From: Acidimicrobiia bacterium
GTDB taxonomy: Bacteria; Actinomycetota; Acidimicrobiia; Spongiisociales; UBA11373
DNA: 64,000 nucleotides
Direction of reading: 5' to 3'
NCBI GenBank assembly: GCA_030584185.1
Contig: CP129495.1
Location: 2,039,469 to 2,103,468, forward strand
The notes below the pieces were generated by a model. That model saw only the letters and a program-made list of their open reading frames with translations, was not told the origin of the DNA and made no database searches. Shown here piece by piece: positions 43,613 through 47,183 of the stretch. Numbering within the stretch: position 1 is the first letter of the stretch; each line of letters starts with the position of its first letter. The translations under genes and the position numbers were made by a program.

Positions 43613-44389
43613 TCAACCGGCAGCGGCCAGGCCATCGACCGCGAACGCCGGGCACCGGTCGCGGAACGAGCACCAGTCACAGAGCCTGCTCACCCGTGGC
43701 GGGAAGTGGCCATCGTCGAGTGCCCGCTCGATGGCCCCCCAGAGGGCGCGCAGCTGGCGATCCATGGCGTCCAGGGCGGCGTCCGAGACCGGGATCGAGT
43801 ACACGGTGGGGCCGTTCAGGTAGATCAGCTTGACGGCATCGGGGGTGCGCTTGGTGCGTCGTCGAATCAGCAGGGCATAGATCTTGAGGGCGAAGAAGGC
43901 GGGCAGGGCGTACTGCTCGGGGGGCGCCTTGCCCGTCTTGTAGTCGGTGATCACCAACCGGCCGTCGTCGGTCTCCTCCATGCGGTCGAGGATTCCCCGG
44001 ATGACGATGCCATCGAGATCCTCGAGGAGGTCCAGTTCCCGGTCGAGTGGCTCGATGCGGGTCGGATCCTCCACCGTGAAGTAGTTGGCCAGCAGTTCGA
44101 GGCTCTCGATCCCCCAGTCGCGTTCTTCGTCGAGGTCGGTGAACAGGCCCTCGAACTCGGAGGTACGGAGTTCGGCCCACGCCTGGCGGAACAGCTCGTA
44201 GAGGGTTTCGGGAGTTCGCTCGTCGGCCGGACGGTCGAAGAGCCGCTGCAACGCGAGGTGGGCGGTCGTCCCTCGGGCCTGTGCGGGTGTGGTCGGCTCC
44301 GGCAGACGATCGATGGCGCGGAACTTGAAGAGTTGCGGACAGTGCTTGTAATCGCCGGCCCGACTCGGGGAGAGCGTCTCGAGTCCCAT
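43613..44389 (-). CDS. Solitary RecB-family PD-(D/E)XK nuclease with an Fe-S cysteine set
   Basis: 258 residues. LSPSRAGDYKHCPQLFKFR opens the protein (Cys17), IRGILDRMEE and LVITDYKTG hold the active-site Asp and Lys, and Cys237, Cys240, Cys246 close the Fe-S clasp with the same C-x2-C-x5-C spacing as AdnA, AdnB and the protein at 12894. Similar RecB-family exonucleases occur in mycobacteria. TATAGT (44402-44397) ends 7 bases before the ATG and overlaps the region of the upstream MFS stop, so it has its own promoter. Confidence 0.88.
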   Translation of the reverse strand: MGLETLSPSRAGDYKHCPQLFKFRAIDRLPEPTTPAQARGTTAHLALQRLFDRPADERTPETLYELFRQAWAELRTSEFEGLFTDLDEERDWGIESLELLANYFTVEDPTRIEPLDRELDLLEDLDGIVIRGILDRMEETDDGRLVITDYKTGKAPPEQYALPAFFALKIYALLIRRRTKRTPDAVKLIYLNGPTVYSIPVSDAALDAMDRQLRALWGAIERALDDGHFPPRVSRLCDWCSFRDRCPAFAVDGLAAAG

Positions 44390-44404: not shown

Positions 44405-45574
44405 TCAGGTGAGTGACAGGCGTGTAGTTCGGCGGGCCAGGCTGCGCTCCCAGAGGGCGAACCAGGTGAGGCCCCCCAGGACCCAGACGGCGGCGATGCG
44501 GAACATCGCCGGGTAGTCGAGCCAGGCGACGATGGCACCCAGCACAGGGGCGCCCACCAGCGCTCCCATGTCGAAGAGCCCCGTGAAGATGGCCGAAGCC
44601 GAGCCGCGTGAGCCCTCCAGCGCCCTGCCGAAAGAGAGGGCGTAGAGGATGGGAAAGCCGTAGCCGTGACCGGCGCCACAGAGCACCCCGGCGAAGGCGA
44701 TTGCACCTCCCGATCGAGCTGACGAGATGACCACCAGGCCGGCGGCGAAAAGGATCATCGACGGGTAGAGGACACGCGTGAGGCCGAGACGGTCCGGTAC
44801 CCACCCGGCGACCAGCCGGAGCGTGATGGCGGTGCCGGCGTAGGCGCCGAAGAAGGTGCCCACCGACCCCACCCCGGTGGTGTCGACGAAGGTGCGCAGG
44901 AAGGTGAAGTAGGCGGTGAGGGCGAACGAGAACACGAGGGTCACCCACCACAGCGGCAGCAGGTCTCGCTGGGTCAGCGAGGCGGTGAACGAGATCCGGG
45001 TGGCGTCGGGCGCAGGCGCCGCCGACTCCCTCAGTGGGATTGCCAGGAGGAGCGCCACCGCCCCGAGGATGATCGCCGCCGTGAACACGGCGTCGAAGTC
45101 GCCGCGCGAGAGCAGGGCGTCGCCCAGGATCCCACCAACGGCGATCGGGAGCATTCCCGAGACTCCGAAGAGTGCCAACCCCTGGGCGCGCCGTCCCTCG
45201 GGCACGAGGTCTGCGGCGTAGGTGAAGATCGAGGCGAAGGTGAGGGCCTCACCCAATCCGTGCAGGACCCGCACGGTGTAGAGCCACGGGCCGATCGAGT
45301 CGATCGTCGGGTACAGCACCAGGGCGAGCAGATGCACCGCCGATCCGGCGAGGATCACAGGCCGCCGGCCCCTGCGGTCCATGACCCGGCCGAGTGCTGG
45401 CCTGATGGCGATCGCCGCCAGGGCGGTCGATGCGACCACGACTCCGATCTCGGTGGTGCTCGCTCCCAGGTCCTCCAGATATCGGGGGAAGTGGACGAAC
45501 AAGAAGAAGGCCAGACCCGAGGAGAAACTCAGAAGCCAGGCGAGGACGAACCGACCCGAGAGTAGGGAACCCAT
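44405..45574 (-). CDS. MFS transporter
   Basis: 389 residues, about 12 helices, no long extramembrane domain. GRVMDRRGRRPVIL in loop 2-3 is the MFS loop motif; the first half ends near residue 195 and a second copy of the six-helix unit starts near 210 (WWVTLVFSFALTAYFTFLRTF). It looks like a drug or small-metabolite exporter, substrate unknown. TAACCT (45589-45584) ends 9 bases before the ATG. The gene ends 15 bases before the RecB-like gene, and no terminator lies between. Confidence 0.87.
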   Translation of the reverse strand: MGSLLSGRFVLAWLLSFSSGLAFFLFVHFPRYLEDLGASTTEIGVVVASTALAAIAIRPALGRVMDRRGRRPVILAGSAVHLLALVLYPTIDSIGPWLYTVRVLHGLGEALTFASIFTYAADLVPEGRRAQGLALFGVSGMLPIAVGGILGDALLSRGDFDAVFTAAIILGAVALLLAIPLRESAAPAPDATRISFTASLTQRDLLPLWWVTLVFSFALTAYFTFLRTFVDTTGVGSVGTFFGAYAGTAITLRLVAGWVPDRLGLTRVLYPSMILFAAGLVVISSARSGGAIAFAGVLCGAGHGYGFPILYALSFGRALEGSRGSASAIFTGLFDMGALVGAPVLGAIVAWLDYPAMFRIAAVWVLGGLTWFALWERSLARRTTRLSLT

Positions 45575-45669
45575 CGCGGGGAGAGGTTAGGAACCGGAGG
45601 GATGGCCGGCGTCATCCGAATCGCTCGCGAAAACTACTCTTATGACGCGAAATTCAGGCTGCAGTTTTT

Positions 45670-45699
45670 CTGGCAAGCCTCGATCGCCGGGCCTATGGT
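45670..45699 (+). promoter_or_regulatory. Candidate promoter of RNA element 1
   Basis: CTGGCA (45670-45675) and TATGGT (45694-45699) are 18 bases apart inside the most AT-rich patch of this stretch. Predicted start near 45706. Confidence 0.4.
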
Positions 45700-45918
45700 T
45701 CACCCACTTCCTCCCCTGACCGCAAGCGAAGGGGAGGCGGCCCCGGGGAACACCCCCGCAAGGGGGCCGCCGGAGAGGGTCTTCGGGCTCACTTCGGCGC
45801 CACGGGGCCACGGCCCACCCCCCGGGCTCCGGCTCGGAGGGAGGGTGCCGGAACGGCGGCAACGTCGAACCGGTTCCCCCTGAGGGCGGCCCGCAAGGGT
45901 TCGTCGACAGGGGGACAT

Positions 45919-45973
45919 GGAGCCCCGAGGGGGCTGAGGCTTCGGCCAAGGCTTCCTCGGGGTTCCGCCTTTT
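45919..45973 (+). terminator. Intrinsic terminator of RNA element 1
   Basis: Twelve-pair stem (one G-T) with an inner UUCG hairpin, then GCCTTTT. No plus-strand protein gene lies upstream after gdhA, so it must end an RNA transcript. Confidence 0.65.
45937..45966 (+). repeat. 30-base direct repeat, copy 1 (copy 2 at 46425-46454)
   Basis: Thirty identical bases, beginning AGGCTTCGGCC and ending CCTCGGGGTTCC, occur at both positions at the 3' end of the two RNA elements. The bases just before also correspond (CCCCGAG then GGG). Confidence 0.9.
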
Positions 45974-46189
45974 CCGGGTGGCCGCTCTCCTTCGACACTC
46001 ACCGACCGGCTCCCACCGCTGCACCGAACTGGTCCTCGCCGCGACCTTCGCCGCTGCGTGTCGGGTCCATCCATCGGCCTCCGTCCATCATCGAGTCCGG
46101 ACTCGTGGCGGCCCGATGCCGTTCGAGAACCGGGCCGCCTCACCTGGGAAAACTTCCGCAAGCTCGCGAAATCCAGGTCGGCCCTGGAC
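45974..46189. other. Spacer between the two RNA elements
   Basis: 216 bases without a convincing gene, repeat or hairpin. An open minus-strand frame (46218 to 45700) crosses it but also crosses RNA element 1 and has no family features, so I do not call it. Confidence 0.5.
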
Positions 46190-46219
46190 TTGACGGCAGT
46201 GTGAACGATGGCGTACATT
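46190..46219 (+). promoter_or_regulatory. Near-consensus promoter of RNA element 2
   Basis: TTGACG (46190-46195) and TACATT (46214-46219) with an 18-base spacer. This is the best -35/-10 pair in the window. Predicted start near 46226, just before the first stem of the RNA element. Confidence 0.65.
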
Positions 46220-46407
46220 CATCACTGTCACCCGGAGCGATCCGGGGACGCCAAAGGGAGGCAACTTCCGGAGGCGGCTACCGACCTCGCTCCCGCAAGG
46301 GAGGGTCGCACCAGGCGAAAGCCGAGTGCGGTCGCCGGGCCAGCCTTCGCACCGGACTCGTCCGAGGCGGGGGACAGGAGTGAGCCGAAAGGAACACTTC
46401 GTACGGT

Positions 46408-46453
46408 GAACCCCGAGAGGGTCAAGGCTTCGGCCAAGGCTTCCTCGGGGTTC
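46408..46453 (+). terminator. 3' stem of RNA element 2
   Basis: A 10-bp perfect stem around an inner UUCG hairpin. The T-rich stretch further on (46472-46484) is weak, so it may be a conserved domain of the RNA as well as, or instead of, a terminator. Confidence 0.5.
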
Positions 46454-46454
46454 C
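46425..46454 (+). repeat. 30-base direct repeat, copy 2
   Basis: Identical to 45937-45966, in the same orientation and 488 bases away. Confidence 0.9.
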
Positions 46455-46568
46455 CCGCGTTCCGGGTCATGCTTGCTGTTTCTCTCCCGGTGGGCCGGGA
46501 TCGGGTCGGCTCGCAGCCCTGGGCGGGTCGAGAAGCGTTCCCCCCGCCTCGCGCGTTACGCTTCGGTC

Positions 46569-47183
46569 ATGACGTACCCCCGCCGCCTGCTCACCGAAGG
46601 CGAGGAGGTGATCCGCGAGTTCCGGCCCCACTGGCGGCTGCTGATCATCCCGTTCGCCTGGACCCTGCTCTTCGCCGTGGCCGTGTTCCTCACATGGAGG
46701 TACCCGCCCGACGCCTCCGCCTTCGACTGGGCGGTGACTGCGGTGGCGGGGATCGCCTTCGCCCGGCTGGGGCTGTACCCGGTGATCGCCTGGTGGTTCA
46801 CCCACTACGTGCTCACCAATGAGCGGCTGATCCGCCGCTCCGGGATCCTCTCGCGCGCCGGCAAGGAGATCCCGCTGGAGAACATCAACGACCTGGCGTT
46901 CTCGCAGACGATCCTCGAGCGCATCCTGCGCTCGGGCGACCTGCTCATCGAGTCGGCGGGCGAGCAGGGGCAGCAGCGTTTCGGCGACATCCCCGACCCC
47001 GAGGCCTTCCAGAGTCTCGTGTACAAGATCCGCGAGGAGCGCTCACGCAGCCTGGAGCATCGTGGAGGCCCGGTGGGGGACGACCCCATCTCCCGGTTGG
47101 AGCGGCTCGGCAAGTTGCTCCAGGAGGGTCTCATCACCCAGGAGGAGTACGACCGCAAGAAGGCGGAGCTGCTCGGCGGCTAG
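46569..47183 (+). CDS. Membrane protein with bacterial PH domain and C-terminal SHOCT domain
   Basis: 204 residues. Two helices at about 23-45 (LLIIPFAWTLLFAVAVFLTW) and 53-75 precede a bPH_2 (DUF304-type) domain: THYVLTNERLIRRSGILSRAGKEIPLENINDL. The C-terminal 32 residues are a SHOCT domain (LERLGKLLQEGLITQEEYDRKK). TACGCT (46557-46562) ends 6 bases before the ATG. SHOCT domains often mediate oligomerisation; the function of the combination is unknown. The next gene follows after 21 bases. Confidence 0.88.
   Translation: MTYPRRLLTEGEEVIREFRPHWRLLIIPFAWTLLFAVAVFLTWRYPPDASAFDWAVTAVAGIAFARLGLYPVIAWWFTHYVLTNERLIRRSGILSRAGKEIPLENINDLAFSQTILERILRSGDLLIESAGEQGQQRFGDIPDPEAFQSLVYKIREERSRSLEHRGGPVGDDPISRLERLGKLLQEGLITQEEYDRKKAELLGG

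Follow-up and report, generated by a model that had tools for sequence, protein, structure and literature searches.

A gap of 1 kb in the genome of an Acidimicrobiia bacterium contains two hairpin-rich elements, raising the question of what they are and what they might do. Within the window, the whole 64,000-nucleotide stretch of DNA that was analyzed, this gap is bordered by a minus-strand MFS transporter gene (44405–45574) and a plus-strand bPH_2-SHOCT protein gene (46569–47183). The analysis shows that, in sequence architecture, fold and locus, the gap is composed of two stand-alone, untranslated, terminator-ended structured RNA genes, for which no expression data are available. They belong to an undescribed RNA family spread across the class Acidimicrobiia, with family, structure, locus and operator all established. 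Our main finding goes further and is inferred: judged by their operator, and in the absence of co-expression data, the RNAs appear to belong to a replication regulon as untranslated members.

Architecture of the RNA1 and RNA2 genes

RNA1 (45706–45979, ~270 nt) and RNA2 (46226–46467, ~240 nt) are multi-hairpin structured RNAs encoded on the plus strand, with starts inferred from their -10 elements. The RNA1 promoter (45670–45699, plus strand), recognized from sequence, is composed of a -35 element, CTGGCA (45670–45675), and a -10 element, TATGGT (45694–45699). Its RNA2 counterpart (46190–46219, plus strand), recognized in the same way, comprises TTGACG (46190–46195) and TACATT (46214–46219). 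Both promoters have an 18-bp spacer, and relatives keep the RNA1 promoter at the aligned position and likewise retain that of RNA2.

Each RNA ends in a terminal hairpin with a nested UUCG stem, the terminator, positioned at 45920–45979 in RNA1 and 46408–46467 in RNA2 (plus strand) and matched in both by model R1, a covariance model of this hairpin built from 66 sequences. The 60-nt hairpin, 85% identical between the two RNAs, possesses an outer CCCCGAG/CUCGGGG stem enclosing a GGC-UUCG-GCC stem. The bodies are not close copies; RNA1 (alignment A3) and RNA2 (alignment A2) represent two families, each alignable only separately by sequence. Protein coding by either RNA was ruled out, leaving no plausible protein reading, because homologue indels are not multiples of three and break the frame and because base changes are compensatory.

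An earlier note, made without database searches, had placed two related elements at about 45706–45973 and 46226–46460, each behind a candidate promoter and neither with a plausible protein gene. The positions, the promoters (as sequence features) and the absence of a protein gene all held, and the relatedness held in part, being confined to the terminator, the promoter architecture and a common style.

Fold, tetraloops and covariation

Minimum free energy folding against dinucleotide shuffles gave z values of -5.6 for RNA1 and -5.4 for RNA2, with 0 of 200 shuffles equally good for either. The hairpin loops of these folds are GCAA (four), UUCG (two) and UCCG in RNA1, and GCGA, GCAA (two), GAAA (two), GCCG, CUCG and UUCG in RNA2; the consensus folds of both are multi-branched hairpins. 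The 64 promoter-to-terminator RNAs analyzed from the order contain 2.04 GNRA/UNCG tetraloops per 100 nt, whereas shuffles contain 0.08; this is an ~25-fold excess, and every one of the 64 exceeds its own shuffles.

Covariation shows that RNA structure is under selection. Both-sided changes occur in 31 of 85 RNA1 pairs (eight homologues, 92.0% paired) and in 24 of 71 RNA2 pairs (ten homologues, 94.2% of cells paired); when the partner is shifted one column as a control, the paired cells of RNA2 fall to 52–58% and its both-sided pairs to 7–9. The consensus folds came from the same alignments, which would account for part of the excess over the shifted controls; the shuffles agree nonetheless. 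In the terminator hairpin, both-sided changes occur in 7 of 17 pairs, and the observed scores were reached by 0 of 500 shuffles.

Outside the terminator, the sole well-conserved sequence of the family, conservation is poor and hairpin number differs freely, with stable loops and stems retained. The 66 extracted RNAs are 94–828 nt long, with assembly gaps in the two shortest, and a minimal form of ~142–156 nt (families f3 and f5) is composed of a few hairpins followed by the terminator. No conserved single-stranded seed was found in the RNA bodies across families, and the 8-mers common across orders revealed no conserved body sequence except hairpin words. These observations bear on one alternative, that the RNAs are trans-acting sRNAs that pair with mRNA targets. 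A promoter-like element and terminator of their own, as in many sRNAs, would fit; the missing seed and bodies that evolve via compensatory change and hairpin gain or loss speak against it, and we regard this alternative as very unlikely.

Comparison with known RNA families

A cmscan search with 4227 Rfam models at the gathering threshold returned only tRNAs from the window and 45 related loci, and at a lenient threshold the best matches in the window were at chance level, far below the cut-off. No Acidimicrobiia RNA of this kind was found in the open-access literature searched. The many-tetraloop folds with a shared UUCG-nested end, the selection on RNA structure and the lack of a nameable family, all proposed in the earlier note, were thus upheld by the loops, tetraloop density and 60-nt hairpin, by covariation and by Rfam, respectively. 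Two findings it had named as refuting did not materialize: covarying pairs are present, and an Rfam match to a terminator or attenuator class is absent. Its further suggestion of an orphan guide RNA of the IscB/OMEGA type was rejected, with no IscB/TnpB-type nuclease adjoining the RNAs, no mobile distribution and a vertically inherited locus.

The foremost alternative, itself unlikely, is a regulator of the 6S or Ms1 type, in which an abundant structured RNA binds RNA polymerase, keeps it occupied and adjusts transcription to growth. Actinobacteria generally lack 6S, and many have Ms1 in its stead (PMC9130861). The likeness is that of stand-alone, syntenic, structured RNAs of 200–300 nt with candidate growth-linked control in Actinobacteria; many copies are of this size, and a growth-linked promoter would fit. 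Against this, no Rfam family matches, 6S included; the fold is multi-hairpin rather than a long rod with a central bubble; and a range of 94–828 nt is too variable. RNA1 and RNA2 also differ in having several copies and an operator common to dnaA and nrdJ, and the synteny of Ms1 with HAD-IB hydrolase and oxidoreductase genes (PMC9130861) is absent, the flanks here being a PDDEXK nuclease and bPH_2-SHOCT.

Next in rank, and also improbable, is a large RNA-only or membrane assembly like OLE, ROOL or GOLLD, ornate GNRA-rich RNAs of unknown function, in which tetraloops would engage in tertiary contacts and the RNA would self-assemble, perhaps with the membrane-type bPH_2-SHOCT protein. OLE is linked to a membrane-protein gene, and ornate RNAs that form homo-oligomers provide a precedent (PMC12286853). 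The very high GNRA density and the close proximity of bPH_2 to the RNA in most families favor such an assembly. However, most copies are short, with a minimal form of ~145 nt, sequence conservation outside the terminator is poor, and bPH_2 is not beside the RNA in some genomes. The family is also shorter than these RNAs, very variable in hairpin number and located at a vertically inherited chromosomal locus. None of the three models gave a cmscan match, assuming that all are among the 4227 searched.

CsrB and RsmZ RNAs carry repeated hairpins of variable number, have their own promoter and terminator and occur in several copies per genome. The RNA1/RNA2 family resembles them in all three respects, but its loops are of the GNRA/UNCG type (UUCG, GCAA, GAAA, GAGA) rather than GGA, and there is no evidence for a CsrA-type partner. 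A sponge- or scaffold-like mode of action is possible but serves only as a working analogy. We rate the family as categorically new, since it passes no defining test of a known family; its mechanism could still prove to be of a known kind.

A syntenic locus with nuclease and bPH_2 genes

To the left of RNA1, a PD-(D/E)XK nuclease gene (43613–44389, minus strand; Pfam PF12705, 5.7e-36) forms the syntenically conserved flank. The MFS gene between the two, identified by Pfam and synteny, is present at the RNA locus only in the window's family among clustered loci. To the right of RNA2, the bPH_2-SHOCT gene (Pfam PF03703 and PF09851) is the other flank conserved by synteny. Gene clustering and tblastn across families f1–f8 revealed a recurring arrangement, composed of a divergent PD-(D/E)XK nuclease, the RNA copies and then mostly bPH_2-SHOCT in the direction of the RNAs, with the nuclease and/or bPH_2 genes flanking RNAs at loci of all eight families. 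The nuclease lies 0.25–2.5 kb upstream, and bPH_2 usually starts within 150 nt of the last terminator (often ~15–150 nt), some genomes lacking bPH_2 beside the RNA. The neighboring nucleases include PDDEXK_1 and a UvrD-PDDEXK protein.

The proximity of bPH_2 raises the alternative that RNA2 is a cis-acting leader or attenuator controlling the gene directly downstream, and the short distance past the terminator favors it. However, many relatives have a TANNNT box a few bases 5' of the bPH_2 ATG, the arrangement of leaderless genes, and RNA2 therefore does not look like a bPH_2 leader. From these boxes we infer, without transcript data, that bPH_2 in relatives is leaderless with its own -10. In addition, RNA1 is closed by a terminator of its own, beyond which lies RNA2 or, in L062, an opposing gene. 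Leader function is thus very unlikely and ranks last after polymerase binding, self-assembly and base pairing.

A mobile or repetitive element, whether REP/MITE or orphan guide RNA, would account for tandem, hairpin-rich copies. This reading is contradicted because the copies sit at a single syntenic locus in all eight families; with only 1–4 copies per genome and no matches in phage and plasmid collections, it is all but excluded. We conclude that the RNA locus is vertically inherited and not mobile in its distribution.

A search of other orders for the nuclease/bPH_2 locus found it only in family f13 (L278), in which the RNA directly precedes a PD-(D/E)XK nuclease gene and shares its orientation. 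This adjacency raises the possibility that part of the locus predates the order.

Distribution across the class Acidimicrobiia

Of 99 relatives, 60 were found by DNA search to carry the element, frequently with at least two copies per contig, 0.3–6 kb apart. A pattern scan of GTDB contigs matched 53 stretches, with titles naming Acidimicrobiia, less specific taxa and, for two, Acidobacteria; the latter are probably mislabelled, one coinciding with a match in a relative of the window. Within the window's order, model R1 detected the terminator hairpin in 106 of 120 genomes, mostly as two copies and at one conserved locus; outside the class, only two genomes gave matches, both weak.

Terminator relatives extend to the other Acidimicrobiia orders, with matches to a second model, R2, in 64 of 225 genomes from 23 families. 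R2 includes some sequences from these orders, its E-values are rough, and most RNA bodies behind its matches were not inspected. The weak R1 matches in other orders represent the same gene type, composed of a hairpin RNA with promoter-like -35 and -10 elements and a terminator of the same type, with tandem double copies in G149 and G323. R1 matches at E ~1e-3 to 1e-2 (L281 and L285) look like chance and were set aside. The RNA of family f23 (L265–L284) is distinct: it measures ~240 nt, its core includes GTCCGACA, and it ends in a terminator of the same type; two genomes have it in tandem copies.

It is rare for an RNA gene that is conserved throughout a class and has a covariation-supported structure to belong to no described family. 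Because the record titles are those of metagenome assemblies and one environmental genome, the family may have escaped RNA-seq surveys of cultured bacteria.

A tandem CGCGAAA operator common to the RNAs, dnaA and nrdJ

The earlier note had recognized neither the operator nor the synteny nor the link to replication. Upstream of the -35 element at nearly every RNA copy in relatives are two direct CGCGAAA repeats, ~20 bp apart from start to start. The RNA1 operator (45626–45652, plus strand) is a tandem CGCGAAA-N13-CGCGAAA with a start-to-start distance of 20 bp. In the RNA2 operator (46145–46171, plus strand), the first repeat is degenerate (TGGGAAA) and the second CGCGAAA intact, giving two mismatches; relatives have it intact. 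The tandem operator is present in 93 of 99 relatives, with a reversed control nearly absent, and RNA copies account for all but two of the 26 exact sites in the window's family (the distal G010 site was included by analogy with G002).

The operator sequence is common to the RNAs, dnaA and nrdJ. In the window's own 2.2-Mb genome, RNA1 has the only exact match to the tandem pattern, and the sole site with one mismatch lies upstream of dnaA; nrdJ is preceded by a single CGCGAAA at roughly the same distance from its -35. In the f2 relatives, each of the six fully listed genomes has the operator at dnaA and nrdJ as well as at the RNA pair, the nrdJ sites of L179 and L203 being assigned by sequence. 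One relative (L201) carries it before dnaB. In family f12 (L155–L169), with ~1-Mb genomes that we take to be probably Candidatus Actinomarina, there is mostly one CGCGAAA-N13-CGCGAAA site despite the very AT-rich DNA; it lies upstream of dnaA in the genomes examined (profile test on L158), with no recognized RNA. In f7 and f3/g35, operator sites also precede unrelated sequences. Neither a CGCGAAA/dnaA motif nor a tandem CGCGAAA site was found in the open-access literature searched.

Operator or DnaA-box-like repeats upstream of -35, before dnaA and ribonucleotide reductase, resemble DnaA-regulated and nrd promoters; the difference is that in Acidimicrobiia this site also lies ahead of an untranslated RNA. 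That the RNAs share their operator with dnaA and ribonucleotide reductase points to a replication regulon that includes an RNA, making the CGCGAAA-box activator and the partner of the RNA directly testable.

Several operator-related features were observed in passing. In G085 (L204–L210) and f7 (L143, L146, L151 and L154), tandem CGCGAAA sites number several per genome, and a repeated element resembling GGGCCCACCCCCGCCACCACC comes after them. In L214 (G096), two LexA-type CGAACNNNNGTTCG boxes adjoin a tandem CGCGAAA site ahead of an unknown gene. The class II ribonucleotide reductase NrdJ of the window's own genome, encoded outside the window (G000:C1:1598073-1602818; L247 and L248), was matched in pieces; it forms one 1999-aa frame with two inserts of ~390 and ~440 aa that are probably inteins.

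Proposed function

We propose that an activator, as yet unidentified, would bind the tandem CGCGAAA repeats upstream of -35 and turn the RNAs on, presumably together with replication genes. The finished RNA would be a string of stable tetraloop hairpins, variable in number, predicted to bind one or more proteins in trans as a scaffold or sponge, with no partner identified; such binding would couple some cell function to chromosome replication. Because hairpin number varies and no single-stranded sequence is conserved, repeated structural binding sites are favored over target base pairing. Without expression data, we place this overall reading, replication-linked, operator-controlled RNAs acting in trans by protein binding, at a probability of ~0.5, with the inferred protein-binding step as its least supported part.

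A bolder version, which we hold more tentatively and consider clearly less likely than not, makes the class-wide RNA itself a component of Acidimicrobiia chromosome-replication control. It would be made together with dnaA and nrdJ via DnaA or a dedicated replication activator and would exert feedback on the neighboring recombination nuclease, on nucleotide supply or on replication itself.

DnaA-box-like repeats in other orders

In several other orders, DnaA-box-like repeats replace the CGCGAAA operator at the RNA promoters. Upstream of most of the RNA promoters located there through weak R1 matches are 9-mers resembling the DnaA box TGTGGATAA, with 37 on the forward strand and 2 on the reverse against 4.7 expected, in a test run only after the pattern was noticed. 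Among fresh sequences, the pattern is absent in f19, g102 and most of f39, and it holds in further f42 members and g142. The RNA promoters of f19 show CGCGAAAA instead, and one f39 genome possesses another tandem repeat.
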